A model generated the notes under the pieces. The model was not told the DNA's origin and made no database searches. It worked only from the letters and a program-made list of their open reading frames with translations. Position numbers and translations under genes: made by a program. Below are positions 23,578 through 61,810 of a stretch of 64,000 nucleotides of DNA, one piece after another (position 1 is the stretch's first letter; each line of letters starts with the position of its first letter). Location: NCBI GenBank assembly GCA_946406115.1, contig OX291547.1:8313001-8377000 (forward strand), read 5' to 3'. Origin of the DNA: Apoda limacodes. Taxonomy: Eukaryota; Arthropoda; Insecta; Lepidoptera; Limacodidae.

Positions 23578-24405
23578 TTCAAAGTCAAAGTCAAAGTCAA
23601 AATGGTTTATTCAAATAAGTCAAAGTTATAAAATATTATTTTTTGAACCCTCCCACCTTCCCGCCGGTTCACAATGTTGTTGATTTCTACCGAGAAGAAT
23701 CCGGCAAGAAACTCGATAGTTACTCTTTTAAAAACACTTAAATAAACTAAAATACAATTAATGTTTTAAATAAAAGATTTTTAGTCGTACAATTTTATGT
23801 TATTTCCATTTTAATTTGGTTTACCTATGCATCATCAGTCCCAAGGATTTTTATCATTTACATAGTCTGAAATATTGTAGTATGCCTTTTTACAAAGCAC
23901 CTGCTTGATAAAAGATTTAAATTTACTTATTGATAGATTTTGAATTTTATTGGGAACTTTGTTGTAAAAGTGTATACATTGCCCCATAAAAGAGTTACTT
24001 ATTTTGTGTAGACGTGTATCATGCACCAACAGCTTATTTTTACTTCTAGTATTTACTTTGTGAACGTCACTTTTCTTGCTGAAACTATTGATATTCTTAT
24101 GTACATATAAAAGATTTTCATATATGTACTGCGACACTAAAGTTAAAATTTTTACTTCCCTAAACCTATCCCTCAGAGATATCCTAGATCCTAATTTATA
24201 AATAGCACGAATTGCCCTTTTTTGTAACAAAAATATTGTATTTACATCAGCAGCGCTACCCCACAATAGGATACCATATGTCATTAAACTATGGAAATAG
24301 CTAAAATATACTATTTTTGCAGTGTCGACATCGGTCAATTGTCTTATTTTCTTGATCGCATACACAGCAGAGCTAAGTTTTTTGGCTAGGTTATGTCGAT
24401 AATTA
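23578..24405 (-). pseudogene. Jockey-type LINE, C-terminal fragment of ORF2
   Basis: A 176-codon open frame (24365 to 23835) reads like the C-terminal part of a Jockey-clade reverse transcriptase: 'DVDTAKIVYFSYFHSLMTYG' then 'ILLWG', 'LQKRAIRAIY', 'FYNKVP'. The frame continues upstream without a start codon to about 24405, where it joins a different LINE. The 3' flank ends in a (tttgac)n-type tail at 23578-23606. The palm domain and everything 5' are missing, so this is a dead 5'-truncated copy. Confidence 0.85.
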
Positions 24406-36022: not shown

Positions 36023-36028
36023 GATAGT
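36023..36028. repeat. Polinton target-site duplication, left
   Basis: GATAGT; identical to 49010-49015. Six base pairs is the size made by Polinton integrases. Confidence 0.95.
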
Positions 36029-36330
36029 AGTAGAGGGGATTCGTGGTTCTGGCGCACTTCCCCCCAACCTCAACCCCTCGCCTAAAAAAAAGCTCACCAA
36101 CTTTTTTTCTGCTTTGTACGACTCGCGTTTGACCACTCTCAAAACATCGTTGGTTCTGGCGCACTACCCTCCAACTTCAACCCCTCGCCTAAAAACTTTT
36201 CTGCCCCCGCACGACTCGCGCTTGACCACTCTCAAAACCACCCCTGTGTCTGGGGTGTGGCGACTCGCGCTTGACCACTCTCAAAAACCACCCCCTGTGT
36301 CTGGGATACGTCGACTCACGCTTGACCAGA
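36029..36330 (+). repeat. Subterminal repeat units, left arm
   Basis: A terminal unit, one unit of about 93 bp ('cttgaccactctcaaaacat' ... 'ccccgcacgactcgcg') and two short units containing 'accccctgtgtctggg'. Each unit carries 'cgactcgcgcttgaccactc'. The right arm has three long units instead of one. These are candidate binding sites for replication or integration proteins. Confidence 0.85.
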
Positions 36331-36522
36331 ACTACCACGTGACATCACTGTAGGTTCTGTGTAGTTTTGTTAAGTATTTATATCATTATCGTAATGGGTC
36401 TATCGTATTTTTCCGTTCATTAGTTATTCTTATTTAATTACAATGTCGTGAGTGCGATAATGATGTTTGTGGTGACATTCCTAATACCTTTTTAATTATA
36501 TTTGTACTTGTAAGATAAATCG

Positions 36523-36534
36523 TATATATATAGG
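36523..36534 (+). promoter_or_regulatory. TATA box of left repeat gene
   Basis: 'tatatatatagg' about 95 nt before the first ATG (36629); mirrored at about 48311-48322 for the right copy. Confidence 0.6.
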
Positions 36535-36628
36535 ATAGTCGAGAGTATTCGAGTTACAATTTATCATCAAGTGATTGAATTCATCCTGTGTGATACTGAG
36601 GCTGGTTCTATTTACTTCAAAAAAAGCT

Positions 36629-37158
36629 ATGGAGGTATGTGTTTTTTTGCTTTATAATTCTTTATCTATATTTATTATATATATTACAGACCCTCAAAAC
36701 TATGTGTTTGTTTGAATGTCTATTACTTAAACCAATTTTGTTTAGGTTTTCACTTTAGGCAAATTTTTGATTCAAATTATTATACAAATATGTTTTTAAA
36801 GCATAGGCTTATTTTATTACAGAATTCAACATTTAACGTAATGGAAGAAAACACGTTCAAGCATTACTACTACGCTACATCGGATGATGAGCAATCAACT
36901 GAGAAGGCCTTAGAAACAACAAAGCTCAAACGGTCTCGTCGAAATAGTATCGACTCATTCTTTGAGGGGACCAATCAGAAGAAAAAGAAACTCAGCTCTA
37001 CAGTGGCGAGATCTTCAAAAGATGGTATCCCTGGTGTCACATACTTGTCTACTAATAATGATGATGGGGCTCATGCTACACATTTGATAAAAATTGAGGT
37101 GTATGACCTCATAAAATTGAAAAAAGTACCAGTAGAAATTGGAAACACTCAGAAGTGA
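36629..37158 (+). CDS. Terminal-repeat gene, left copy, C-terminally truncated by a frameshift
   Basis: Two exons: 36629-36634 (only ATG GAG) and 36823-37158. The 188-nt intron (36635-36822) starts GTATGT and ends 'ttattttattacag'. The first exon joins in frame, giving 113 aa. The product is acidic at first, then has a basic stretch fitting a bipartite nuclear signal ('KLKRSRR' ... 'QKKKKLSS'). Compared with the right copy a 4-nt deletion near 37134 shifts the frame, so the last 44 residues are replaced by a few others and a stop. No known domain is recognised; a regulator or DNA-binding protein is a guess. An AATAAA at 37272-37277 follows. It converges on the protease gene. Confidence 0.75.
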
Positions 37159-37341
37159 GGATCAAATATTATACGGATACAAAAGATGAAAAATATGAGC
37201 AAACGAAGGGTATCATATTTGATATCACGAAGCAAATAGCAGAAACCAATAACTGTAAAAATAAATGATATAAATAAAAAATATTTTTTTGTTTTTTAAC
37301 CACTAATTACACAAACACACACATAAGAAAAAAACATTTTT

Positions 37342-37347
37342 TTTATT
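37342..37347 (-). terminator. Poly(A) signal after the protease gene
   Basis: AATAAA on the minus strand directly after the protease stop codon. It may serve the whole leftmost transcript. Confidence 0.55.
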
Positions 37348-37800
37348 TTAAAAAGTTTTATTATCAAAAATTGTTTTAAACATATCATATAATAAAATAT
37401 CATTACATAGAGTGTTATTACTAAAGTGGTTTACAAAATCAATCATTGATTTACCATGAAACTTAAAATACAAATAAACAAGACAATATTCCCCACAAAC
37501 AGTTGTAAAGTCATTTTGAACTCTTTTATTATTGTAACTCCATATCTTAGTATTCTTATTTAAGAAATATAAATGATGTCTACTAGGTTTACGACCATAA
37601 GAATCAAAGTATTCACCTAATCCATTTTTATTAATATGTATTCCCACCCAATGCGATCCAGGTTGATTTTCAACATCTAAATTACTAATGAGAAAAGCAG
37701 GTAGGTGCATGAGTACTGGTAATCTATTTGCAGCAAATACATTTAGTTTAATTTTCGGAGAAATTATCTTTAAACATTTTTGAATATCTAAAGTATTCAT
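37348..37800 (-). CDS. PRO: Adenovirus-type cysteine protease (capsid maturation)
   Basis: 150 aa. In the Polinton/adenovirus group this protease cleaves capsid and core precursors inside the particle. The catalytic pattern is visible: His50 in 'GSHWVGIHIN', Asp66 in 'GEYFDSYGR', Gln95 (oxyanion) in 'RVQND', and Cys102 in 'TTVCGEYCLVYLY'. This is the order and spacing of the adenovirus-type fold (Ulp1-like clan). The start is the only ATG near the open end. It lies 69 nt behind the capsid gene and is the last gene of the minus-strand block. No TATA box is seen in the gap, so it may be read from the capsid-block promoter. Confidence 0.93.
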   Translation of the reverse strand: MNTLDIQKCLKIISPKIKLNVFAANRLPVLMHLPAFLISNLDVENQPGSHWVGIHINKNGLGEYFDSYGRKPSRHHLYFLNKNTKIWSYNNKRVQNDFTTVCGEYCLVYLYFKFHGKSMIDFVNHFSNNTLCNDILLYDMFKTIFDNKTF

Positions 37801-37869
37801 TTCAAAATGTTGATATTATGAATGTCAAAAGTATAATAAGTCCTTTCATTGAGTTCTAATTATTATATT

Positions 37870-39180
37870 TTAGCTACTGTAATCTACTGAAACATTACGA
37901 TTTTTATCTATTTCAATAACATTATCAAATTCAGCATACACTATACAGTTTATTGTTTGTATGAGTGCTGCTTCAAAACGAACTTCAAGTCTTACGCTTC
38001 CATGTCTAATAAGATTCCAATGAGACGTAGAACTAGCTGATAAGTCTGGAGTTAAATCAAATGCCATCAAACAATATCCATTTGCATATTGTTCCCTAGA
38101 AATAGCATTACCATCATTCAAAAAGTGAATACCTGACCCGGAAAATAGTGTATGGTAAGCTGTGGTAAATATATTGTTGTGAAACATTGGTTGTAAAGCT
38201 TTTGATGGTATTTGTTGGCCATCTATATACAAACTAAATGTATTTATTCCATAGTTTTCAAAGTTAAAAGGGTTTCTGTTAAAACTTCCATTAAAAGCAG
38301 CATTGTTTACAAAACCTATTATACACCTTTTTGGAACTTGACCAATAAATATGTTATCAAGCGTTTTTCCCTGAACTCCTGAAGGTATTGTGAGCACTTT
38401 GACTTCAGCTCTGGTTATAGGATACTTAGCAGTCGTTGCACTTAAAACTTTTTGATGTGCTAATAATACACTTGGACTAATTTTTGCTCTACGAACTATA
38501 AGTGTAGCGTCAGTAAAAGTAACTTTCAGTTTAGCATCAGCACCAGCCATAAGATTAAAACTTTCTCTTGATCGTACTAGTTTAAGACTAATTTCAACAC
38601 CATTTATCAGAAACTTTTCTTGATTAAACAAATCCCCATGCAAATGTCCTACCATTTCTACCTCTTTACTCTCACGTACAAATTGATTCCTTTTTTTAAA
38701 TCCATCATTAGAATCATCTAGTGAATTCATTTTTCCAGCTGTGTCTTCATACCATAGTCCACAAGTCAGATGAGATTGTTTAGCTGCTGGACCATAGTTT
38801 AATAAAGTTTCTATAAATGCCCTATAAGCATAAGTGTTGTTTGGTGGAGATACTAGTTTTTGATTTAAATACACATCGAGTTGATTGAACAGTGAGTGTA
38901 ACCAGTTATTAGTTGGGGCTACTACTGTAGCAGCAGCTAAGTTGGTGCCATCTTGGTTTCGAATTTTAACTTTTAAATGTAGTAATGTATGAGACAAATC
39001 GATATAATCATCCCCCGTACCAGGAATTTGAAATTCAATTGGTCCATCGTCTGTAAGGGATGATATAGGTTTGTAGTGTATCCATTGTCCATTTTCAATA
39101 CTTGTCTGAGTTGTTGGTAAAGCAAATAAATCCAATTCCGATTTTATACATTCACATGAATGATTATGTAAGAATGACAT
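37870..39180 (-). CDS. MCP: Major capsid protein, double jelly-roll
   Basis: 436 aa, the usual size for Polinton capsid proteins. The sequence is of the type databases often list as 'F54H12.2-like'. Typical segments are 'IEFQIPGTGDDYIDLSHTLL' near residue 50, 'WLHSLFNQLDVYLNQKLVS' near 93-111, and 'CLMAFDLTPD' with 'GSVRLEVRFEAAL' near the end. The family forms pseudo-hexameric capsomers by two stacked jelly rolls; that is family knowledge and is not visible in primary sequence. The ATG (39180-39178) overlaps the stop of the upstream 148-aa gene by one base (TAATG). Intact. Confidence 0.95.
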   Translation of the reverse strand: MSFLHNHSCECIKSELDLFALPTTQTSIENGQWIHYKPISSLTDDGPIEFQIPGTGDDYIDLSHTLLHLKVKIRNQDGTNLAAATVVAPTNNWLHSLFNQLDVYLNQKLVSPPNNTYAYRAFIETLLNYGPAAKQSHLTCGLWYEDTAGKMNSLDDSNDGFKKRNQFVRESKEVEMVGHLHGDLFNQEKFLINGVEISLKLVRSRESFNLMAGADAKLKVTFTDATLIVRRAKISPSVLLAHQKVLSATTAKYPITRAEVKVLTIPSGVQGKTLDNIFIGQVPKRCIIGFVNNAAFNGSFNRNPFNFENYGINTFSLYIDGQQIPSKALQPMFHNNIFTTAYHTLFSGSGIHFLNDGNAISREQYANGYCLMAFDLTPDLSASSTSHWNLIRHGSVRLEVRFEAALIQTINCIVYAEFDNVIEIDKNRNVSVDYSS

Positions 39181-39626
39181 TATTTGTTTGAAAATATATC
39201 TTTAGTATTTCTATTAATTTTATACTTTCTAGTTCTCAACTCTTTCAAAGCTGTTGACGGAATGGAATGAATCCGACGTTGACGTTTCGTTATATAACCT
39301 GATCCATTCATTAGTCTTTCAATTTTATCATCTGCTCTTCGTTTTAAATTACTACTTACATCTTTTAACCGTGTTTGCACAGATTCATTCATTGGTTTCT
39401 GGCTTATCATATCGCTTAATAATCCCACTCCAGCATTAAGAGCCTCTTTACCAATTACTCTTGCCCCACTTGATAATAAAGGTAGTACTGATCGAAACAG
39501 GCCTCCTAAAAAGCTTCCTATTCCATGACCACGTTGATGTGGTACACCTTTATAAATTACACCAATTCCTGATCCTGCTTGGTGTGAATAATATTGCTCA
39601 TAGGGACAAATACTGTTATTATGCAT
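39180..39626 (-). CDS. 148-aa glycine-rich, basic Polinton protein; possible minor core/membrane-active protein
   Basis: Residues 18-75 are glycine-rich and hydrophobic ('GSGIGVIYKG', 'GIGSFLGGLFRSVLPLL'). Residues 88-145 are strongly basic ('LKRRADDKIERLMNGSGYI', 'KRQRR'). Two places fit the adenovirus-protease rule (M/I/L/N/Q)-x-G-x|G: QAGS|G at 16-20 and MNGS|G at 106-110. Cleavage there would free short N- and C-terminal peptides, an arrangement like adenovirus pVI. The gene sits between penton and capsid genes, sharing single bases with both (TAATG junctions), so a virion role is likely. The function is inferred; homology to pVI is not shown. Confidence 0.8.
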   Translation of the reverse strand: MHNNSICPYEQYYSHQAGSGIGVIYKGVPHQRGHGIGSFLGGLFRSVLPLLSSGARVIGKEALNAGVGLLSDMISQKPMNESVQTRLKDVSSNLKRRADDKIERLMNGSGYITKRQRRIHSIPSTALKELRTRKYKINRNTKDIFSNK

Positions 39627-40387
39627 TATAATCGCTTAAAGTGTAGTTTAACATATGCGGTCCCAAATTGAAATGGTATTTTATTACCAGTGTTTGTTCT
39701 TATATCTATTTCAATTGTATCAAATTCTCTTCGCATAACTGGTAAGTAGTGGGGTGGTGAAAATACATGCATCTTATAAGCACCATAGATATATTTCTCG
39801 GGGTCTAAAGGTATTATTCTTAACAATGGTGTCATAACATCTCCAACTATTTGCGGATCAATTATATCACAGTAAACAAATAATTGAGAAGGTAATCCTA
39901 AATGTAAATTGGGTGGGTATCTTCCAACATTTTTTGTTATTAAATTAGTTTTTGGTTCAAAGCCAAGTTGAATACTTAACTTTGATGATAACGTTAAAGA
40001 TGATATATTTTTATCGTTAATTTGAACAGAGACCATCTGGGAAACTTTATCATAATGAAAGCGACAGTTTTCTTTTAGGTTTAAGGCTTTTAAAATGTTA
40101 TCAATATTATCATAATTGGTTGCAGGTATATGATTTTTATAAATAACTGATGATATTGATTTATCCAAAGGTACTATCATTTTCTTAGTAATATACATTA
40201 TATTTTCACCCTCTTGAACTGTAAACATACTACATGGGTATTGAAATTCTACAACTCCAACAGACCACTGTCCTTCTAATTTTATAGGTTTTGGAAGTTT
40301 TGTTGAAAAATTTGTAGTGGTATTACTCGGAAAATATTCCATTGAACTATTACTGAGCAAAGTTAAATAAAAATCTTCCTTAATCAT
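39626..40387 (-). CDS. mCP: Minor capsid (penton-like) protein, single jelly-roll
   Basis: 253 aa from the ATG at 40387. The frame is open further up, but the only earlier start would be a TTG, so the start that overlaps the integrase stop (ATGA) is preferred. The sequence is of the conserved Polinton penton type: 'FYLTLLSNSSMEYFPSNTTT' at the start, 'GQWSVGVVEFQYP' near 40-52, and 'FGTAYVKLHFKRL' at the end. The family fills the five-fold vertices of the capsid. It is translated from the same block as the capsid gene, and its stop overlaps the next ATG by one base. Confidence 0.9.
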   Translation of the reverse strand: MIKEDFYLTLLSNSSMEYFPSNTTTNFSTKLPKPIKLEGQWSVGVVEFQYPCSMFTVQEGENIMYITKKMIVPLDKSISSVIYKNHIPATNYDNIDNILKALNLKENCRFHYDKVSQMVSVQINDKNISSLTLSSKLSIQLGFEPKTNLITKNVGRYPPNLHLGLPSQLFVYCDIIDPQIVGDVMTPLLRIIPLDPEKYIYGAYKMHVFSPPHYLPVMRREFDTIEIDIRTNTGNKIPFQFGTAYVKLHFKRL

Positions 40388-41463
40388 ATTTTTTCTATAT
40401 CTTTTAATGATACCCAAGTATTAAATTTGTTTGGATAACCTTTCCACTTCACTAGTACTTGCTTTCTATTTCCAAAATAACGAGTGTGGAGTATTTTATC
40501 TATTTTATGTGGGAGAGTGGGGTTGTATATTACTTTTTGTAATTCTTTTTCATAAAATGTACCTGTAATGGGTTCATTTTGAAGATCTTTTAACGTATAA
40601 ACTACCCAAGGTGATCTTCTTATAACTGAAGTAATAACAAATATTTCATCACTCCAGTTGCTCTCGTATCCTTTTTGAAATATGTGTTTATGTTTTGTTA
40701 TCCTAACATAATCACCTTCTTTAAACCTGTTTAGAATAGCCTTTTGCCCTTTATCTCTATCATATAAATTATTCCAAACAGTCATAATATTTTCAGAGTT
40801 AACATCTTTGGGACACATTTTTATACTTGAATGATAGCTATGATTATAAGAATAAATCAAATCTTTTAAAATATCAACATATCTATATGTGTTATGATGT
40901 GTGAAATACCGCCACATTTTTGTCTTTAATGTTCTTTGAAAGCGTTCCTCGATACTAGCTTTTATATCAGGATTGTTAGTGGTGTAATAGTTTATACCTT
41001 TACTTTTAAAATATTTTTGCACATCCTTAGAAACAAATTCAGTTCCCTTATCTGACTGAATGTGGTTAGGTAAGGATTTTGACTCATTAAATATACTTTC
41101 AAAGCATTCTTTTATAGTTATAGAGTTCTTTTTTTTTAAACATCTAGCAAATGCATATTTACTAAATACATCAATAACACACAGAATATATTTAAAACCA
41201 TCATTATATTCAGAATAAGTGCGCATATCACTTAAATCCACCTGCCACAAGTCATTATAATTAGATAAAATGTACTTATTTCTAGGAAATCTATTTCTTA
41301 CAGGTTTATGTAATGTGTAAGTTTCTTGTTCTTGCAACCAATTTTTCACTTGTTTTGCTGTCATTTTTCCCTTTAACGAGTTGATGAGTTTGTTAACACC
41401 TCCATATTCAGCAGGATGAGAAACATCATAGTAAATCTGATTTATTTCTAATAGGGGGTCCAT
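40384..41463 (-). CDS. INT: Retrovirus-type integrase with C-terminal chromodomain
   Basis: 359 aa. The DDE core is visible: Asp76 in 'LWQVDLSDM', Asp138 in 'HIQSDKGTEF' and Glu173 in 'ASIEERFQRTLK', 34 residues after the second Asp. Residues 241-312 form the usual SH3-like linker region ('FKEGDYVRITKHKHIFQKGY'). Residues 321-357 are a chromodomain ('IDKILHTRYF', 'VLVKWKGYPNKFNTWVSL') that may steer insertion to marked chromatin. It makes the 6-bp staggered cut seen at the ends. The gene overlaps its upstream neighbour by 16 nt and its downstream neighbour by 4 nt. Intact. Confidence 0.95.
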   Translation of the reverse strand: MDPLLEINQIYYDVSHPAEYGGVNKLINSLKGKMTAKQVKNWLQEQETYTLHKPVRNRFPRNKYILSNYNDLWQVDLSDMRTYSEYNDGFKYILCVIDVFSKYAFARCLKKKNSITIKECFESIFNESKSLPNHIQSDKGTEFVSKDVQKYFKSKGINYYTTNNPDIKASIEERFQRTLKTKMWRYFTHHNTYRYVDILKDLIYSYNHSYHSSIKMCPKDVNSENIMTVWNNLYDRDKGQKAILNRFKEGDYVRITKHKHIFQKGYESNWSDEIFVITSVIRRSPWVVYTLKDLQNEPITGTFYEKELQKVIYNPTLPHKIDKILHTRYFGNRKQVLVKWKGYPNKFNTWVSLKDIEKI

Positions 41464-42233
41464 TTTTCCCAGTCTATTTTTTTCTTGATTTTGTTAAAAT
41501 GAGTCTTAGTAGGAGTAAAACTATTATCTGATTGCAATTTGTTAAGTGGAATTTCTTCTTTTATATCACCTAAGTAAAGTTTATTAATATATTCTAGTCT
41601 TTTTGGATTTCCAATATAAGTTAATGGTATTTTAATTTCTTTTAATGCTGATGCAAACTCTTGCCACCCAATTGGATCACTGTGTTTAAGTGGTCTTAGT
41701 GTATCATTCACCAGGTCTATAATGTTACTTCCTGGTATTTTCATATTATTGATACTAACAGTTCCATTGGTATCCCAATCTACCTTATTTTTATTTGAAA
41801 AAATTGATTCTATTAGTAATTCACCTCGTTTTATATACGTCTTAGGAATCAATTTCAAGAGTTGTTGCTTTGAATAAAATGGGGTTAAGTCAGTATTATT
41901 TATGGTTTTTGATTTTATGTTTGATACCTGCTCAGTGTCAAGGACTGTTTCCTTAATGACATCAGTATCTTTATAATTAGGCGAACTTTCTGTTTTGGTT
42001 ATAATTGGTATTTGATATGGTCGTCGTTCTACTTCAGTAAAATGTAAATACCTTTGTAGTGTTTGTAAATACAAAATCCATTTTTCTCTATCTTCTACAT
42101 TACTATTTAAAATATCTTTCATTTCACCATCTAAACGGGATAAAGTATTTAAAGCGCTTTGTGTTTCATTTTCCTTTTTAATTTTTTCTATCAAATTAGG
42201 TTCAATTAGAATCATTTTTTTAGCATGTTCCAT
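41448..42233 (-). CDS. 261-aa conserved Polinton protein, function unknown
   Basis: Begins with a charged helical region ('LIEKIKKENETQSALNTL'). The C-terminal half carries a pattern often seen in Polinton and adintovirus proteins of this position: a tryptophan/aspartate stretch 'VDWDTNGTVSINNMKIPGSN' then 'IIDLVNDTLRP' and 'GWQEFASALKEIKIPLTYIG'. No catalytic motif is seen. It lies 19 nt after the 109-aa gene and overlaps the integrase by 16 nt, so it is likely co-transcribed with the capsid set. Assignment to the family is from pattern memory; the role is unknown. Confidence 0.75.
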   Translation of the reverse strand: MEHAKKMILIEPNLIEKIKKENETQSALNTLSRLDGEMKDILNSNVEDREKWILYLQTLQRYLHFTEVERRPYQIPIITKTESSPNYKDTDVIKETVLDTEQVSNIKSKTINNTDLTPFYSKQQLLKLIPKTYIKRGELLIESIFSNKNKVDWDTNGTVSINNMKIPGSNIIDLVNDTLRPLKHSDPIGWQEFASALKEIKIPLTYIGNPKRLEYINKLYLGDIKEEIPLNKLQSDNSFTPTKTHFNKIKKKIDWEKWTPY

Positions 42234-42252
42234 TTTTGCTTTTATTTTCCTG

Positions 42253-42582
42253 CTAAGGTTTTAAAATTGAACTCACCAAGGCACTTAGAACAGATCCTAA
42301 AATAATAGGTAAAAAGGCACCACCCCTTTGAATAATTACGTTTTTTCTAAGTAGATTTCTTCCTTTACAAACCAACTTTCTCAATATATTTTTATATTTT
42401 TTTAATTTGTTTTTATCATTTTCCTTGACGGGTATTTTACCCTGTAATACGTTGTAAATACACTCACAAATAAAATTTATTTCTTCTTTACTACAAGATT
42501 TAAGTAAAGCTTTTCTATGTCTTGGTTTCAATACATGCAACGATTTTAAAAGTTCTTGATGTGTAGTCACTCTTGAATGCAT
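42253..42582 (-). CDS. 109-aa basic protein with hydrophobic C-terminus, possible core peptide precursor
   Basis: Residues 1-86 are basic ('KPRHRKALLK', 'KLKKYKNILRKLV'). They are followed by 'IIQRGGAFLPIILGSVLSAL', a hydrophobic tail able to form a membrane helix. QRGG|A fits the adenovirus-type protease rule, so a cut there would release the hydrophobic peptide from the basic part. Small proteins of this layout are usual in Polintons and adintoviruses and have been compared with adenovirus core protein pX; that comparison is an inference here. It is the first gene behind a TATA box at 42638-42647 and leads the tightly packed block. Confidence 0.75.
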   Translation of the reverse strand: MHSRVTTHQELLKSLHVLKPRHRKALLKSCSKEEINFICECIYNVLQGKIPVKENDKNKLKKYKNILRKLVCKGRNLLRKNVIIQRGGAFLPIILGSVLSALVSSILKP

Positions 42583-42637
42583 TATTTATGAATGATTGGA
42601 ATTTCATTATGTTTGCTGTATTTAAATCCTTTTTTAG

Positions 42638-42647
42638 GTATATATAC
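42638..42647 (-). promoter_or_regulatory. TATA box before the capsid-block genes
   Basis: 'gtatatatac' on the minus strand, about 56 nt before the 109-aa gene ATG. The next five genes down to the capsid gene have no room for a separate promoter outside coding sequence. Confidence 0.55.
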
Positions 42648-42660
42648 AATGCAGTTCTGG

Positions 42661-43242
42661 TCAGAAGGAAATATTCTCGATTTTAAATCGACACATATCA
42701 ATTGTGTCCTGTTTTAAATCTATTATTAGGTAGCCATGAGGTTCACTAGTAGCATCTTTGTAGGCATCTTCCAAAAATTTAATGTTTTCAGGTGAGACTT
42801 GACGTGCTAAGTAACGAATTTGTGTTTTATCTCGTGGATTTTTAAAGTAGACTATATAACTAGAGTTTAAAGAAATATCTCTCTGTCCTTTACCTTGATG
42901 GAATATATTTTGTGTAATATAGAAAACACTAATGTTTCTATGATGACTACCCTTTGTGAATATGTCAACAACACGACCATCAGACTCTCGCATGAGGTCA
43001 TCGATTATTATTAGTTGTGGTTGTTCTCCATCAAACATACTGAGGTCAGGAATACCTTGGTAATAATTAACATTGTTCAAGTTGTATAACGGTTGCATTT
43101 CATCATAACACCACATAATATTAGAAAAATGTTGATTGCAAATCTCATTAGCATGTTTCACAAATTTTTTAACAAAAACTGATTTACCACATCCACTAGG
43201 GCCAGCTACAATTACTGTAAAGGGATGATAAAAATGAATCAT
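42661..43242 (-). CDS. ATP: A32/FtsK-HerA-type genome packaging ATPase
   Basis: 193 aa. Walker A 'GPSGCGKS' (residues 14-21), Walker B 'LIIIDD' (77-82), and a polar strand 'NISVFYITQN' (103-112) typical of the poxvirus A32-like packaging ATPases. The family pumps the genome into the capsid. The length is near the low end but covers the whole core. The ATG is preceded by stop-rich AT sequence. It stands alone between the polymerase and the capsid block, with its own TATA-like site at 43313-43322. Intact. Confidence 0.93.
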   Translation of the reverse strand: MIHFYHPFTVIVAGPSGCGKSVFVKKFVKHANEICNQHFSNIMWCYDEMQPLYNLNNVNYYQGIPDLSMFDGEQPQLIIIDDLMRESDGRVVDIFTKGSHHRNISVFYITQNIFHQGKGQRDISLNSSYIVYFKNPRDKTQIRYLARQVSPENIKFLEDAYKDATSEPHGYLIIDLKQDTIDMCRFKIENISF

Positions 43243-43312
43243 AATTATTTTTAATGTGTGTTCTCTTTGAAAATGTTCAAATTCATATGGAGGAAAGCAA
43301 TAAAAACAAACA

Positions 43313-43322
43313 CTTATATATT
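43313..43322 (-). promoter_or_regulatory. TATA box of the ATPase gene
   Basis: 'aatatataag' on the minus strand, about 71 nt before the ATG at 43242. Confidence 0.5.
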
Positions 43323-43454
43323 AAAAACAATATAATTAATAATAAAAAAAAAAATTACAATCATTATGTTACTTAATAATAGTTATTACCTTACATTTTT
43401 TAAACACACATAAACCAGATACAATTAATACTCTATATTATTATTATTTCAAAA

Positions 43455-46400
43455 CTATAAGTTAATCTTAAAATGACCCCAAGCATATGTATCTGTTGAA
43501 TTAGGTAAAATATATCTCTTGGTGTCATTACAGGATAGACAAGTTTTATTAATTTGTTGTGTAAAAATAGTATGTTTCACACTTCGAATCCTACACATTT
43601 GTGAAACATTTACATTTTTATTAAATAGACACAACTTATAATTTTCCAAATTCATCTTTTTTGTCACACTTTTATTTACACCTTTTGCTTTAGCAATAAC
43701 CTTACTTTCAATGTCCATTGCATACATTTTTGATCGAAGTCCTACAAACTCCCGAAATATTTTACCATTGTTCTCATCCTTAAAATATCCAAGTTTCTTT
43801 TTATTTAAAAGTGGGAAACCATAAACATTATCACTAGAATAGTCTGAAGTATCGAAAAAACATTCTAAGTCAGATTTTATATCATTATAAAAATTATCTG
43901 TAAATACATGGTAAACTAAGCTATCCGTATCAGTGTATAATAACTTGACACTATTATTGTATTTTCTTTTCATGTAATTATAATGAAAGTTATACATCAA
44001 TGTTTTTGATATTTCTAATATACAAAATCCTAAAACAAATGGTTTATTGAAATATACCTTAGTCTTTTGTAATTGTACAGCAATTAAAGACTCGGAGAAT
44101 ATAGATAGACTATGAAACTCAGGGCGAGCAATTAAACTTTGTGCACCTTGAATTTTTCCATGGTTTTCCCAGTGGGTTAACAATTTCACATTAACACGTT
44201 TTTCAACATTTTCCATAGTTTTACCAAAGACTGCATTATTCATAAGTTTATAAAAATCTTTTTCAAAGTCACTTTTAGCTAAAGTTCTTAGTTGTGTATT
44301 TAAATCTATATATTTCTTCAACCAAGGACTTTGCTCAAACTGTAAAACTCTATGAACTCTAATTAATTTCATACCAAGTTGTAAACATTGCTTCAGATTT
44401 CTATAGTGAATAATATATTTAGTTTTGTTATATAAATTTGGTACTAATTTTTTATCTTTACTGTTACCGATTACAATGTTTTCAGGGCATAAAGGTAAGT
44501 CTGAATGAAGATCATGTAAATTTTCAGGGTATTCAAGATCAACTTCCAGTATGTATCCAATATCTGATGAATCTGATATATTGAAGTCTATGTTCGGGTT
44601 AACCCATTTAAAATCTCTTACAGGCAAATACTGAGACATTGCCCAACCATAGAGATTGTTTGCATCAAAATACATTAAGTAAGATTTTGGTAAGTTATCT
44701 TTGTAATCACCCATGTACTCGTTATTTGCCTTTCCATATCTGTTAGAACACTGTGAAATACCACCTCTTATACCAGACTTTACGAATGCTATTTTATCAA
44801 AGTCTTTTAATAATTCCAGTGTTATGTTAGTACATTTTAGCATTGCATCCCAGCTTAATCCTGGAAGGGTATAATATTGTACAGGGTCGAGTTCATATGT
44901 TTTAATACTAATTTCTCTAAAGTTTTCAAAAATATCAGTGAGTAACATTACATCAGTTCTTAAGTATAGATTGGAATAGTCCAACATATTTTTACATTTA
45001 AATTGGACCCAAACATTTTGAGCATGTTTATAATCATCATCTGAGACACTGGTATTACTTAAAGAGTTAAAGAAAGCGTCTTGATCTGGAAGAGTTGTAA
45101 CTTTTAAGGATTCATAAGAATTAACAAATTCATAAGGAAAAACACCTTTCCTAATAAGTTTATTAAAATCATTTTCGTTTGGAAATTGTTTTCTTAATTC
45201 TATAAATTGATCTTTTTTTAGATTTTTAGCTAAACTATCTAAACTACTGGCCATGAATTTAAAGGAATCTAAAAACCGCAAATGTACTAAATGACCTCTT
45301 ATATTAAGTTTTTTTGAGAATGAAATATATTTTTCCTTATTTTGCGGAATGATATCTATTTCTCCATCTTTAAAATTCAAAGCATGAACAATAAAATGAG
45401 CATCATAATTACTTAGATTATGAAATAGAATGGGAATGAAAAAGGGAACACGATACTTTGAACTACATAATTCGTGAGCAACACCTCTAAAATTACCAGT
45501 ATTCCAATCATAGTCTACTGTGATGTCATCACCCAATAGCCCTTCACAAATATAACATAATTGCGATTGTCTAATAGATTCCTTCTCTTCGTTAGTTAAT
45601 GGAAGTGGACATTTTTGAAAACAATTTATCCTATGTATATTGCTAATATCTTTGTAAATGCTTTCCATAAACATTTTTGCACAATTAGGCCCTGTGTATG
45701 TTCTGTATGTAGACAGCTTATCATCATACGAACATTTTATATAGTATCCATAACTATAAACTTCATGTTCATGTATTGTTTTTGTATATGACTTCGATGG
45801 ATCAGGGTCACATGAGGTGACGGGTTTTAAAAGAGCTTCAAAGTCTGCATATATTACAAAAGGTAATTTTAATTTTCTTTGAAACTTATCAAAATAGATT
45901 TCATCATTATTTGTTTCCCGATTAAACCAATCTTTTCCTTTTTTATGAATTCCTGGTAATTCAGTAACAATATGAGCACAGTCATGTTTTTGGTGATTAA
46001 TTAAATTAACTTTAGATTTAAAATATAGAAGGCAACCATCACAGATATGAATAGCATTATTTCGATTCGTTATTTGTTTACTAACCAAGCGTGATAAATT
46101 TTTTATAAAACAATAATGACCATTTGAACCATTGTTTAAAAATAATAAGTTAATGTGTAATTCTTTACGACATTTTGTAAAATATAATGGTCCAACGATG
46201 GTATTACATTTTTTTTCTTTGTTAAATTCTAATCCGAAAACATTGATACTAATGTTATTCTGTTTTTCTACCTTGGGTATATCCGATAATTTGATTGGGA
46301 ACTGTATATTATTAAACTTTAGTCTATTTTGATTCCTCAAGTATGATGATACCCTTTCAGAACTTTTATTTACAGGATATAGTGCGGATAATAAAGCCCA

Positions 46401-47355
46401 CTTAAAACATTGTTGATCGTTATTTTTTACATTTATGACTGCTTTTTTACGCTTAATATCTAAAGGTAATTCAATAAACGAAGACCCTCGTAAGGGATTG
46501 AACTTATTAACATTCATTTCTAAGAACTGAATTTTTTTTAAAGTCCATCCACTATCTTTTGCTTCGAAATCACTCATTTTATTTTTAATGTCTTCGCTTA
46601 AAGTTTCTAAATAATTTTCTAATTCGTCCCCTAAAGAAATAGTCCAATTTTTTGTTTGAAAATCGAAAGAATTTTTTAAATCTTTTGTTTCCTGTTCAAA
46701 ATCTGCATGAATAATAAAATTAACTTTAACAATAGTTAACTCTTTTAAACATTCCTGAATAAGAAATAGTATCGACTCTTTAATTGATGCTATGAATACT
46801 TCAGGAGTTTGTATTTTAAGTGACTCATTAGCTTTAGGTGATACAATTCTATACGTTAAGACCCGAGACCCAAAAGCAACTGATATAACAGAGACATTAT
46901 GTAAATTATGATTATGAATAAGACATTTTTCTTTGTGTTCCTTAGATCGTAAGTGCTGAGCATAGAACCTTTGGCTAACCTGTAATTCACATATTTGACA
47001 CATAACGTTCTGTCTATGTGTTGTATTGGAAGATGATGACGTCGATGCTTGTTGTAAATCTTCAACACTAATATCAGCTTGTCTCTTCAAACCTCGACCG
47101 ACTTGAATTGAAGATTTTCTGTAGATATAACATGCTTATGTTAATATAAGAACACAAATATGTAACATAAAATTTAAATAAGTATAGTTAGAATGTATAC
47201 CTGAATGTTTCCTCAACTTCTTTACAGATGTTAAACAGTGAAGTGTCATAATACGGATTTTCCAGAGCATTATCTTCATAATTCTCACACGCTCTCATTA
47301 GTTCTTTTTCTTCTTCTTCAAAAACATTTTGAAAAAAAACACTTTCTAGTGACAT
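43455..47355 (-). CDS. PolB: Protein-primed family B DNA polymerase, two exons
   Basis: Exon 1 47355-47201 and exon 2 47118-43455, with an 82-nt intron (47200-47119) starting GTATAC and ending 'tatatctacag'. They join in frame to 1,272 aa. Exon 2 alone has no upstream ATG before an in-frame TAA. Exon 1 encodes an acidic N-terminus. Numbered from the TTG at 47090 (add 61 for the full protein): C2H2 finger 31-52 (CQIC...H...H); possible OTU-like region 223-335 (Cys228, His325); Cys-rich pair 350-371; exonuclease Exo I 'ADFEA' 415, Exo II 'NLSNYD' 558, Exo III 'YLRTD' 709; endonuclease-VII-like segment 512-547 with altered histidines; motif A 'FDANNLYG' 808, motif B 'KLMNNAVFG' 948, motif C 'YTDTDS' 1052; 'KMY' 1121. 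It replicates the element from its ends using a terminal protein. Confidence 0.95.
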
Positions 47356-47426
47356 GGTTGAAATAAACCAGTTTAGCTTTGCTTGTGAATGATGAATTAA
47401 TAATAAATATAATGTTCGATTTTGTT

Positions 47427-47437
47427 CTTATATATAC
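47427..47437 (-). promoter_or_regulatory. TATA box of the polymerase gene
   Basis: 'gtatatataag' on the minus strand, about 72 nt before the exon 1 ATG. Its presence just upstream supports the spliced start. Confidence 0.6.
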
Positions 47438-47560
47438 AAGTCGATAAGGTGATTACTATATTAGTTGATGGTTAATTAATAGTTTGCTCGTTACTTATCA
47501 ATTAGATACTCATAAAATTTTGTAAGGATGGTTCTTATAAATTAATTTAGCTATTAGAGA

Positions 47561-48216
47561 TTACTTTTTAAAAAAGTATTTTTTACAGTTATTGGTTTCT
47601 GCTATTTGCTTCGTGATATCAAATATGATACCCTTCGTTTGCTCATATTTTTCATCTTTTGTATCCGTATAATATTTGATCCTCACTTCTGAGTGTTTCC
47701 AATGTTCATCTACTGGTACTTTTTTCAATTTTATGAGGTCATACACCTCAATTTTTATCAAATGTGTAGCATGAGCCCCATCATCATTATTAGTAGACAA
47801 GTATGTGACACCAGGGATACCATCTTTTGAAGATCTCGCCACTGTAGAGCTGAGTTTCTTTTTCTTCTGATTGGTCCCCTCAAAGAATGAGTCGATACTA
47901 TTTCGACGAGACCGTTTGAGCTTTGTTGTTTCTAAGGCCTTCTCAGTTGATTGCTCATCATCCGATGTAGCGTAGTAGTAATGCTTGAACGTGTTTTCTT
48001 CCATTACGTTAAATGTTGAATTCTGTAATAAAATAAGCCTATGCTTTAAAAACATATTTGTATAATAATTTGAATCAAAAATTTGCCTAAAGTGAAAACC
48101 TAAACAAAATTGGTTTAAGTAATAGACATTCAAACAAACACATAGTTTTGAGGGTCTGTAATATATATAATAAATATAGATAAAGAATTATAAAGCAAAA
48201 AAACACATACCTCCAT
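47561..48216 (-). CDS. Terminal-repeat gene, right copy, full length
   Basis: Two exons: 48216-48211 (ATG GAG) and 48022-47561, with a 188-nt intron (48210-48023), giving 155 aa. Apart from the end it matches the left copy. The last codons and stop lie just beyond the repeat boundary (about 47579), so the true C-terminus depends on unique sequence. It has an acidic start, a bipartite basic stretch (nuclear signal) near residues 38-62, and a C-terminal part rich in K, E and Y ('YYTDTKDEKYEQTKG'). No domain is recognised. It reads toward the polymerase. Since the polymerase comes next on the same strand, the gene may be expressed early; that is inference. Confidence 0.8.
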
Positions 48217-49009
48217 AGCTTTTTTTGAAGTAAATAGAACCAGCCTCAGTATCACACAGGATGAATTCAATCACTTGATGATAAATTGTAACTCGAATAC
48301 TCTCGACTATCCTATATATATACGATTTATCTTACAAGTACAAATATAATTAAAAAGGTATTAGGAATGTCACCACAAACATCATTATCGCACTCACGAC
48401 ATTGTAATTAAATAAGAATAACTAATGAACGGAAAAATACGATAGACCCATTACGATAATGATATAAATACTTAACAAAACTACACAGAACCTACAGTGA
48501 TGTCACGTGGTAGTTCTGGTCAAGCGTGAGTCGACGTATCCCAGACACAGGGGGTGGTTTTGAGAGTGGTCAAGCGCGAGTCGCCACACCCCAGACACAG
48601 GGGTGGTTTTGAGAGTGGTCAAGCGCGAGTCGTGCGGGGGCAGAAAAGTTTTTAGGCGAGGGGTTGAAGTTGGAGGGTAATGCGCTAGAACCAACGATGT
48701 TTTGAGAGTGGTCAAGCGCGAGTCGTGCGGGGGCAGAAAAGTTTTTAGGCGAGGGGTTGGGGTTGGAGGGTAGTGTGCCAGAACCAACGATGTATTGAGA
48801 GTGGTCAAGCGCGAGTCGTGCGGGGGCAGAAAAGTTAGGTTAGTTTAGGCGAGGGGTTGGGGTTGGAGGGTAGTGTGCCAGAACCAACGATGTATTGAGA
48901 GTGGTCAAGCGCGAGTCGTACGAAGCAGAAAAAAAGTTGGTGAGCTTTTTTTTAGGCGAGGGGTTGAGGTTGGGGGGAAGTGCGCCAGAACCAACGAATC
49001 CCCTCTACT
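47579..49009 (-). repeat. Polinton terminal inverted repeat, right
   Basis: About 1,431 bp. It is 198 bp longer than the left arm. Two extra subterminal units (93 and 100 bp), the 4-nt indel in the gene and a single base account for the difference. Confidence 0.93.
48562..48960 (-). repeat. Subterminal repeat units, right arm
   Basis: The word 'gagagtggtcaagcgcgagt' + 'cg' starts at 48562, 48611, 48704, 48797 and 48897 (spacings 49, 93, 93, 100). Between words, units carry 'tgcgggggcagaaaagtt' and 'ggcgaggggttg'. The 100-bp unit has a short insertion 'aggttagt'. Confidence 0.9.
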
Positions 49010-49015
49010 GATAGT
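49010..49015. repeat. Polinton target-site duplication, right
   Basis: GATAGT, directly after the terminal ACT of the right repeat. Confidence 0.95.
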
Positions 49016-60544: not shown

Positions 60545-60935
60545 TCAATGTCTGTACCAAGCACCTTGAACACGAGTTTGAAAGTGTGATACAGGTGTAA
60601 CAATGTAAGCTTGCTGTGGTTGTTGTACAACAGCTAAAGGTATAACTTGTTGAGTCATTTCAACCTGTTGACCTCCTTCTTCAGATACTCCTAATGGTTG
60701 AACACAATGTTGTTGAGTCACTTGTTGTACACCACCAACTTGTTGGGTCAATACTTGTTGGTGTTGGCTGACCTGTGGCACTAACATTTGTTGCTGCAGC
60801 GTCTGTTGCTGCGGTTGTTGTTGGTGAATAACAACGTGTGGTCCTTGGTTTTGCATTTGTTGGTGCTGTTGTACTTGGACTTGTACTTGTTGTTGATGCT
60901 GCTGTTGCTGTTGTTGCTGTTGCTGCTGCTGTTGT

Positions 60936-60997
<62 letters not shown>

Positions 60998-61810
60998 TTG
61001 GTGTTGCTGTTGCTGCACTTGCTGCTCTCTCTCCTGCTCCTCTTTCTTCTTAGCCTCCAAAGCTGCCTTCTTTGCTTCTGCCTTCTCTTTCTCTTGTTGC
61101 AATCTAATGGGATCTTTGTTCTTATCATATGACATGCATTTACCACTACGGAATGGCACCATGTCCTTTGGAAGCTCTTGCTTTTTAGTTGCAAATTTAA
61201 CATGAGGAAACTGATCCTTCATGAACGCGCGGAAAGTAGAATAACCCATTAATTTTACACCAGGTTCCAAGATTTCTCCATATTCTTTGTAAGCTTCAAA
61301 CAAATGTTTCCTCGAGTCACCTTGGATTATAATGGTCTTACTGGCTTTTTTTCCTTCGCCCGAAGGTTGAATATCTTTAGGTGAGCTTGCATGTTGTTTC
61401 AAATATTCCTTTAGGAAGTTAGTAGCATGTTTATATATATCAAGTGTAAACGTATTATATGGTTTCTTACCTACATTTCCATGTATCCGTGGTGCTACTC
61501 CGTGTGTCATAACATGCTGCCTGATACGCTTAAGCTGATAGTGTGTAACATTCTCAAGGTATAAAAAAGCTTCTAAGCAAACCTTACGTCCCTGATACAC
61601 ATAGCAAGCACGTAGTCTCCTTCTGACTTTGTGGCGAGATGTCTCAGCAGGGTTAGCCAAACTTGCCATGGTAATTCCCATCAAATACATATCGTGTTCA
61701 CTTTTTGTTAATTCGGCAATGTTGAGCCGGTGACGGTACACGGCTTCAGGATTAAGCCCTCGATAGCAGTTATCTTTGCAGTCACATCCTCTCATTAACC
61801 TATCCTTGAC
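60545..61810 (-). CDS. Terminal exon of a host gene: conserved Cys-containing domain plus polyglutamine tract
   Basis: From the first ATG in the exon (61795) it encodes 416 aa. The reading frame is open further to a good 3' splice site ('caattccag' before 61810), adding VKDRL, so an upstream exon is likely. Residues 4-10 'CDCKDNC', 'RHRLNIAELTKSEHDMYLMG' (21-40), 'YQGRKVCLEAFLYLENV' and 'RIHGNVGKKPYNTF' form a conserved-looking domain. It recalls a metazoan family of unknown function in which 'VC...Fl.l' and 'R.HgN.gr.P.n' blocks occur. Residues about 230-262 are a charged helix. His265 and His300 bracket 34 uninterrupted Gln (mixed CAG and CAA), followed by a Q/V-rich tail. Composition suggests a nuclear co-regulator; the function is not known. 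No frameshifts. Confidence 0.75.
60899..61000 (-). repeat. CAG/CAA repeat coding for 34 glutamines
   Basis: 102 bp of ctg/ttg triplets on the + strand without interruption. The mixture of the two codons makes it less prone to slippage than pure CAG. It causes long spurious Leu and Val/Ala-rich frames on the opposite strand. Confidence 0.95.

Follow-up and report, generated by a model that had tools for sequence, protein, structure and literature searches.

The window analysed here is a 64,000-nucleotide stretch of the genome of the lepidopteran Apoda limacodes (contig OX291547.1, positions 8,313,001 to 8,377,000); positions below are counted from its first letter. It contains a Polinton/Maverick element of 12,981 bp (36029-49009) that sits between two copies of GATAGT. 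The element begins with AGTAGAGGGG and ends with CCCCTCTACT, the right end being the complement of the left. As the original prediction had claimed, this is a full-length copy with exact ends and a perfect 6-bp duplication, and its nine internal core genes, all of them open reading frames (ORFs) on the minus strand, are without breaks (Table 1). The 6-bp target-site duplication and the long terminal inverted repeats starting AGT are those of a Polinton/Maverick, and the genes follow the order PolB-ATP-PM-PZ-INT-mCP-PW-MCP-PRO, which is the order given for vertebrate Mavericks in the accessible part of a published survey (PMC8097293).

Table 1. Features of the Polinton/Maverick element and its borders in the window.
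Feature	Position	Strand	Remarks
Target-site duplication GATAGT, left copy	36023..36028		directly abuts the element
Left terminal inverted arm	36029..37274	+	begins with AGTAGAGGGG; has subterminal repeats, an inner TATA-rich region and one version of the arm-borne ORF
Cysteine protease, 150 aa	37348..37800	-	residues of an H/D/Q/C motif; in the PDB, a weak match (E 0.057) to the viral protease S273R
Major capsid protein (PY), 436 aa, putative	37870..39180	-	presumed motif and position only
PW-position protein, 148 aa	39180..39626	-	overlaps the capsid gene at a TAATG stop/start
Minor capsid (penton, PX) position protein, putative	39626..40387	-	from an ATG overlapping the integrase stop
Integrase, 359 aa	40384..41463	-	rve E 1.5e-13, C-terminal chromodomain E 4e-9 (Pfam), DDE residues
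PZ-position protein, 261 aa	41448..42233	-	order as in PMC8097293
PM-position protein, 109 aa	42253..42582	-	order as in PMC8097293
P-loop ATPase, 193 aa	42661..43242	-	Walker A and B; packaging role by position
Protein-primed-type DNA polymerase B, 1211 aa	43455..47090	-	motifs and gene order
147-codon arm-borne ORF (MEENTF...), longer version	47561..48004	-	right arm; no family match
Right terminal inverted arm	47567..49009	-	more 93-bp repeats, ~3.3 units at 48609-48919
Target-site duplication GATAGT, right copy	49010..49015		directly abuts the element

Since one inverted pair alone extends over 853 bp at 100% complementarity, the arms cannot have arisen by chance; the other main blocks of the pairing, which covers about 1.2 kb, are 96-97% complementary. 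The arms are near-identical, as had been described, but not equal: they differ in repeat number and by a 4-nt indel. The left arm has fewer 93-bp subterminal repeats, and the distance from the end to the unique core is 311 bp in the left arm and 504 bp in the right. Owing to the indel, near 37137, the arm-borne ORF of the left arm has a C-terminus that is different and shorter; the longer version in the right arm had no family match in protein-family library scans. In both arms the TATA-rich region and a possible intron (GTATGT...TTACAG, after GAG) lie upstream of this ORF. Within the window no second copy of the element was found, and neither Rfam at gathering thresholds nor ARAGORN reported anything.

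Among the gene products, the integrase can be identified with certainty from its rve domain, chromodomain and DDE residues. The polymerase carries, in order, three motifs that we take to be exonuclease (Exo) motifs and three that we take to be polymerase (Pol) motifs (DANNLYGWAM, KLMNN..FGK and YTDTDS), and its N-terminal part contains zinc-finger-like and cysteine/histidine motifs. As no in-frame ATG precedes residue 30, the true start is uncertain. Over 484 aa it is 62% identical to an ORF of a second Polinton family, itself found by its PolB motif. For the ATPase the best Pfam match is to RNA_helicase (E 2.3e-5), and the match to Pox_A32 is weak (E 0.019). The protease, presumably adenain-like in view of its motif residues, had no match in the Pfam scan.

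The PW, PM and PZ proteins and both capsid proteins are assigned putatively, by position and by motifs that we presume to be theirs. The 436-aa protein, which we take to be the major capsid protein from such a motif and from its gene position, had no Pfam or PHROG match and no credible NCBIfam or PDB match, the PDB search having covered this one of the two capsid candidates. An AlphaFold2 model of it, made without an alignment, reached a pLDDT of 31 and was discarded. The penton-position protein had no credible family match in the library scans. Between 39172 and 40394 the integrase, penton, PW and capsid genes are joined by three successive tight stop/start overlaps (ATGA, TAATG, TAATG), which suggests coupled translation. 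No relatives were found in IMG/VR with the capsid, the polymerase or a degenerate polymerase motif as queries, nor among phages by tblastn of the polymerase.

In the portion of the vertebrate survey available to us (PMC8097293), Mavericks share with the window element the gene blocks PolB-ATP-PM-PZ and INT-mCP-PW-MCP-PRO, the 6-bp duplications and AGT-type ends, these being (AGT)2 in vertebrates and AGTAGA here. Intact vertebrate Mavericks measure 12,723-24,620 bp and have arms of 46-1447 bp, and the window element is alike in both respects; its size of 13 kb, which the original prediction had called compact, is indeed close to the small end of that range. In contrast to the vertebrate elements, all of its genes lie on one strand, an arrangement reported there for Xenopus tropicalis (PMC8097293), and an ORF is found inside the arm. 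Sf Maverick 1 and 2 from Spodoptera frugiperda cells resemble it in having nine ORFs, among them PolB, ATPase, an integrase with a chromodomain and a protease, according to the accessible part of their description (PMC5803895). All ORFs of Sf Maverick 1 are on one strand, as here, but by the order of the published table the protease of the Sf Mavericks precedes ORF6-8, whereas in the window it comes last, after the capsid gene (PMC5803895). An integrase with a C-terminal chromodomain is also described for adintoviruses (PMC11071296), and it is our guess that the cysteine/histidine region at the N-terminus of PolB might correspond to their OTU-like domain.

A check proposed together with the original prediction, a search for near-identical copies elsewhere in the assembly, returned hundreds. 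The assembly comprises 800 Mb in 31 contigs, the first of which starts with the arthropod-type TTAGG repeat. The terminal 25-mer of the element has 652 exact matches genome-wide (control 0) and stands for one of two end variants only, the left end in the window carrying the other. A 36-mer from the capsid gene was found at 222 places with at most 3 mismatches (control 0), and the 100 places listed were all exact. As lower bounds, the 96 capsid copies scored among 445 candidates were all 99-100% identical (40 top-scoring, 94 stop-free), and 28 of the best 38 among 3775 polymerase candidates had no stop. The scored capsid copies are spread over 25 contigs, which are all the large ones, the other six measuring 15-191 kb. 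In comparison with these 222 capsid-bearing places, the vertebrate maximum given in the text available to us is 287 copies, all defective, and 38 intact copies are reported for one genome (PMC8097293).

Twenty copies were drawn at random from the 95 other copies in a list ranked by capsid similarity. Thirteen of them had both ends in view, the seven with one or both ends outside the fetched stretch being left out of the duplication count; the 6-bp duplication was exact in 11, had one mismatch in one and was absent in one. Because the 11 exact duplications represent 10 different sequences, the sampled copies are independent insertions. Segmental duplication of a few insertions would also account for the very high identity between copies, but the variety of target duplications and the presence of copies on all 25 large contigs make it scarcely credible as the source of the high copy number.

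On average, two copies diverge by 0.33% in the capsid-integrase piece (19 copies compared, 2 of 21 rows having been dropped as too rearranged) and 0.45% in the polymerase (17 copies, 4 of 21 rows dropped). Singletons make up 73 of the 87 variable sites in the former and 96 of the 111 in the latter, a star-like pattern, and mean private divergence is 0.13% (175 of 129,794 sites). The window copy itself has 5 private substitutions in 7,230 sites (95% interval 0.02-0.16%), which, like the presence of hundreds of other near-identical copies across the assembly, supports the claim that its insertion was recent. At a substitution rate near 3e-9 per site per generation, its age would be roughly 0.2 million generations.

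Polymerase singletons comprise 69 nonsynonymous (N) and 22 synonymous (S) changes and 5 stops, near the neutral expectation of 70, 25 and 4.5%. In a selection test from which the capsid gene was excluded and stops were left out, shared variants numbered N 10 and S 11 against N 117 and S 31 for singletons (Fisher p 0.005); in the polymerase alone, shared variants were N 7 and S 8 (p 0.030), and measured against the neutral expectation shared variants gave p 0.010. Since shared variants are poor in amino-acid changes and polymerase singletons are near-neutral, source copies were probably functional during the spread of the family, with inserted copies decaying about neutrally. The family may still be mobile, which is consistent with selection on transmitted variants. 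Whether it may also form particles, as the original prediction suggested, would depend on capsid proteins that are putative, being assigned from motifs and gene order. Amongst the 20 sampled copies the integrase was strictly intact in 13, the penton gene in 14 (with in-frame 3-nt changes only in three further copies), the PW gene in 19 and the capsid gene in 20. All five genes, the polymerase included, were intact in four copies, one of them counted via a polymerase seen whole in the polymerase scan.

A different history might be written from part of this evidence, in which most copies were brought in by an exogenous adintovirus-like virus that infected the germline again and again, and not by transposition within the genome. 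The capsid-type genes of the window copy are uninterrupted, 94 of the 96 scored capsid genes are stop-free, transmitted variants look constrained, and the combination of PolB with an integrase bearing a C-terminal chromodomain is that described for adintoviruses (PMC11071296, in the part accessible). The star-like spectrum, however, is compatible with either route, and the capsid sample is biased and was excluded from the selection test, so that we hold infection to be a possible but not the probable source.

When the first 100 listed element ends were paired, 29 pairs were obtained and 42 ends were left unpaired. Ten pairs span 12.7-16.0 kb and 19 span 4.1-8.7 kb, the short ones all differing in length. 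At least 13 of the 19 short pairs are palindromic: for 11, the matches listed include an arm marker in both orientations (one of these was read whole), and two more were read whole. The three short elements read whole (L091-L093) are giant palindromes, each half of which is the polymerase-side end of a Polinton, with arms of 1711 bp at 99.94%, 3077 bp at 99.7% and 1112 bp at 99.0% identity. They contain no ORF longer than 142 aa. Exact 6-bp duplications flank six of the seven palindromes with both ends found; in two more the left end was not in the fetched stretch. An arm 36-mer occurs at 671 places (control 0), and the 100 matches listed form 53 clusters, of which 32 have both orientations, always plus before minus. 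For one half palindrome (L124), the 5 kb read contained no mirror copy of its arm.

When L091-L093 are compared with the window element, all three have gaps at the same outer-arm places (~11106, 10853 and 10692 in the element), and their centres differ. Because of these common gaps they most likely descend from one palindrome. Within each element the two copies of an arm piece differ at 0 of 534, 3 of 532 and 1 of 537 positions, and between the three elements at 2.7-5.8%; in another arm piece from nine palindromes the mean difference is 0.15% within (9 pairs) and 1.35% between elements (162 arm pairs, range 0-2.5%). Arms that had drifted since a common origin would differ within elements as much as between them, and it is thus probable that, at about the time of each mobilisation, one arm served as the template for the other. 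In two pairs of unlinked palindromes the whole centre is common at 99.6%, which argues that the palindrome itself multiplies.

Long inverted repeats can also convert, and the high identity of the arms in the three elements read whole might result from chromosomal gene conversion after insertion, the palindromes then being ordinary non-autonomous deletion derivatives. Seven clusters have more than two matches in both orientations, and the five that are not mirror-symmetric among the matches listed would fit such an origin; the other two, by contrast, mirror repeats of 1000 and 1104 bp exactly in both arms. All 32 two-orientation clusters are plus then minus, and the centres common to unlinked copies indicate that the palindrome itself moves, which together make conversion an unlikely explanation. 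Foldback artefacts are known in long-read data, and the palindromes could in principle have been produced by the assembly or by hairpin reads in the library. This is very improbable, given the exact 6-bp duplications around six of the seven palindromes read at both ends, the recurrence of the same centre at unlinked loci and a few private differences carried by the arms.

Two other proposals were set aside. Palindrome spacing classes were dropped as independent turn-around points, some steps being ~410-420 bp and the centres read containing repeats of one unit. The second Polinton family was rejected as the parent of the palindromes, which it matches far less than the window family does. No intact parent of the palindromes was found.

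Taken as a whole, we read the window element as a young, coding-open copy of a recently amplified Polinton/Maverick family whose source copies were kept functional, accompanied by a palindromic non-autonomous lineage that was most probably copied back and is probably mobilised in trans (probability roughly 0.84). Judging from the gene content and the known family, the protein-primed polymerase that the element encodes would replicate a linear copy, starting at the AGTAGAGGGG ends, and the integrase would insert it with 6-bp staggered cuts. Selection probably kept source copies functional during the spread, and inserted copies then decayed about neutrally, a view supported by the statistics on the sampled gene pieces. 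The palindromes would represent an older non-autonomous lineage with the same ends, in which the polymerase-side half is present twice, in inverted orientation; this lineage probably arose by copy-back of a displaced strand and is probably now mobilised in trans. Protein-primed, strand-displacing replication would supply the displaced palindromic strand; in each replication this single strand might fold and prime on itself, one arm being copied from the other. Replication of the palindromes, we infer, depends on a helper. That palindromic Polinton satellites are a self-maintaining mobile class, which borrows the Polinton polymerase and integrase and has its arms recopied in every cycle via a folded single strand, seems to us evenly balanced between true and false.

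Several observations weigh against this reading. The polymerase is strictly intact in only 4 of the 20 sampled copies and has stops or frameshifts in 10, although it is open in the window copy; of the others, two are cut by the fetch edge (both stop-free full-length) and one has an in-frame 3-nt loss. The intactness of the capsid gene in 20 of 20 copies is biased, the sample coming from a list ranked by capsid similarity, and for the same reason capsid singletons (N 8, S 9) are, as expected, not neutral-like. Pfam DNA_pol_B_2 misses the window polymerase, although the same library finds the phi29 polymerase at 1e-110. The capsid fold is putative, the two capsid proteins being assigned by position and presumed motifs. 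For the palindromes, mobilisation by the window family is something we infer from the common ends, and their arm piece is 15-18% diverged from that family. Among the matches listed, 21 of the 53 arm clusters have a single orientation, and the five asymmetric clusters described above belong here as well. Identity between arms is lower in the outermost repeats, at 81% over 158 bp in L092 and 95% over 61 bp in L091. Finally, one palindrome (C22, at ~20.78 Mb) has no target duplication. Its outer flanks, 14 bp on each side, are exact mirror images and Polinton-arm-like; it gives the impression of lying inside a larger palindrome or a concatemer.

L091-L093 are built like snapback genomes, in that one parent end is present in two inverted copies and each extremity carries the terminal repeat. 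Adeno-associated virus (AAV) forms snapback genomes that are likewise palindromic, symmetric or looped, and consist of half of the parent with its terminal repeat, according to the accessible part of their description (PMC8235507). Those, however, are DNA in parvovirus particles (PMC8235507), whereas the palindromes here sit in the chromosomes, have Polinton ends and are flanked by 6-bp duplications. Galileo-type foldback transposons, as portrayed in the text available to us, have similarly long, internally repetitive inverted repeats, but they belong to another superfamily (PMC3573991), and the arms here are the polymerase-side half of a Polinton. No description of palindromic Polinton satellites was found in the literature, which was searched partly for palindromic or non-autonomous forms and mostly without subscription journals.

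With 222 capsid-bearing places that are near-identical and in part coding-open, this genome makes it possible to test, in one species, whether Polintons still move and whether they do so in the manner of viruses or of transposons. If the proposed origin is right, the palindromes would represent, in chromosomes, what defective snapback genomes are in viruses, and would record errors of protein-primed replication that turned into a successful satellite lineage. The identity of their arms would then serve as a built-in clock since the last replication, and transcription reading through a palindrome would yield long hairpin RNAs that match the polymerase gene.

In the second Polinton family of this genome, 58 of the 59 matches to the degenerate polymerase motif are one 30-nt sequence, and the polymerase frame is split in the copy read. 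Elsewhere in the window, outside the element, a fragment at 23835-24365 looks like the terminal part of a LINE-type reverse transcriptase, and a 416-aa ORF with a long glutamine run lies at 60545-61795.

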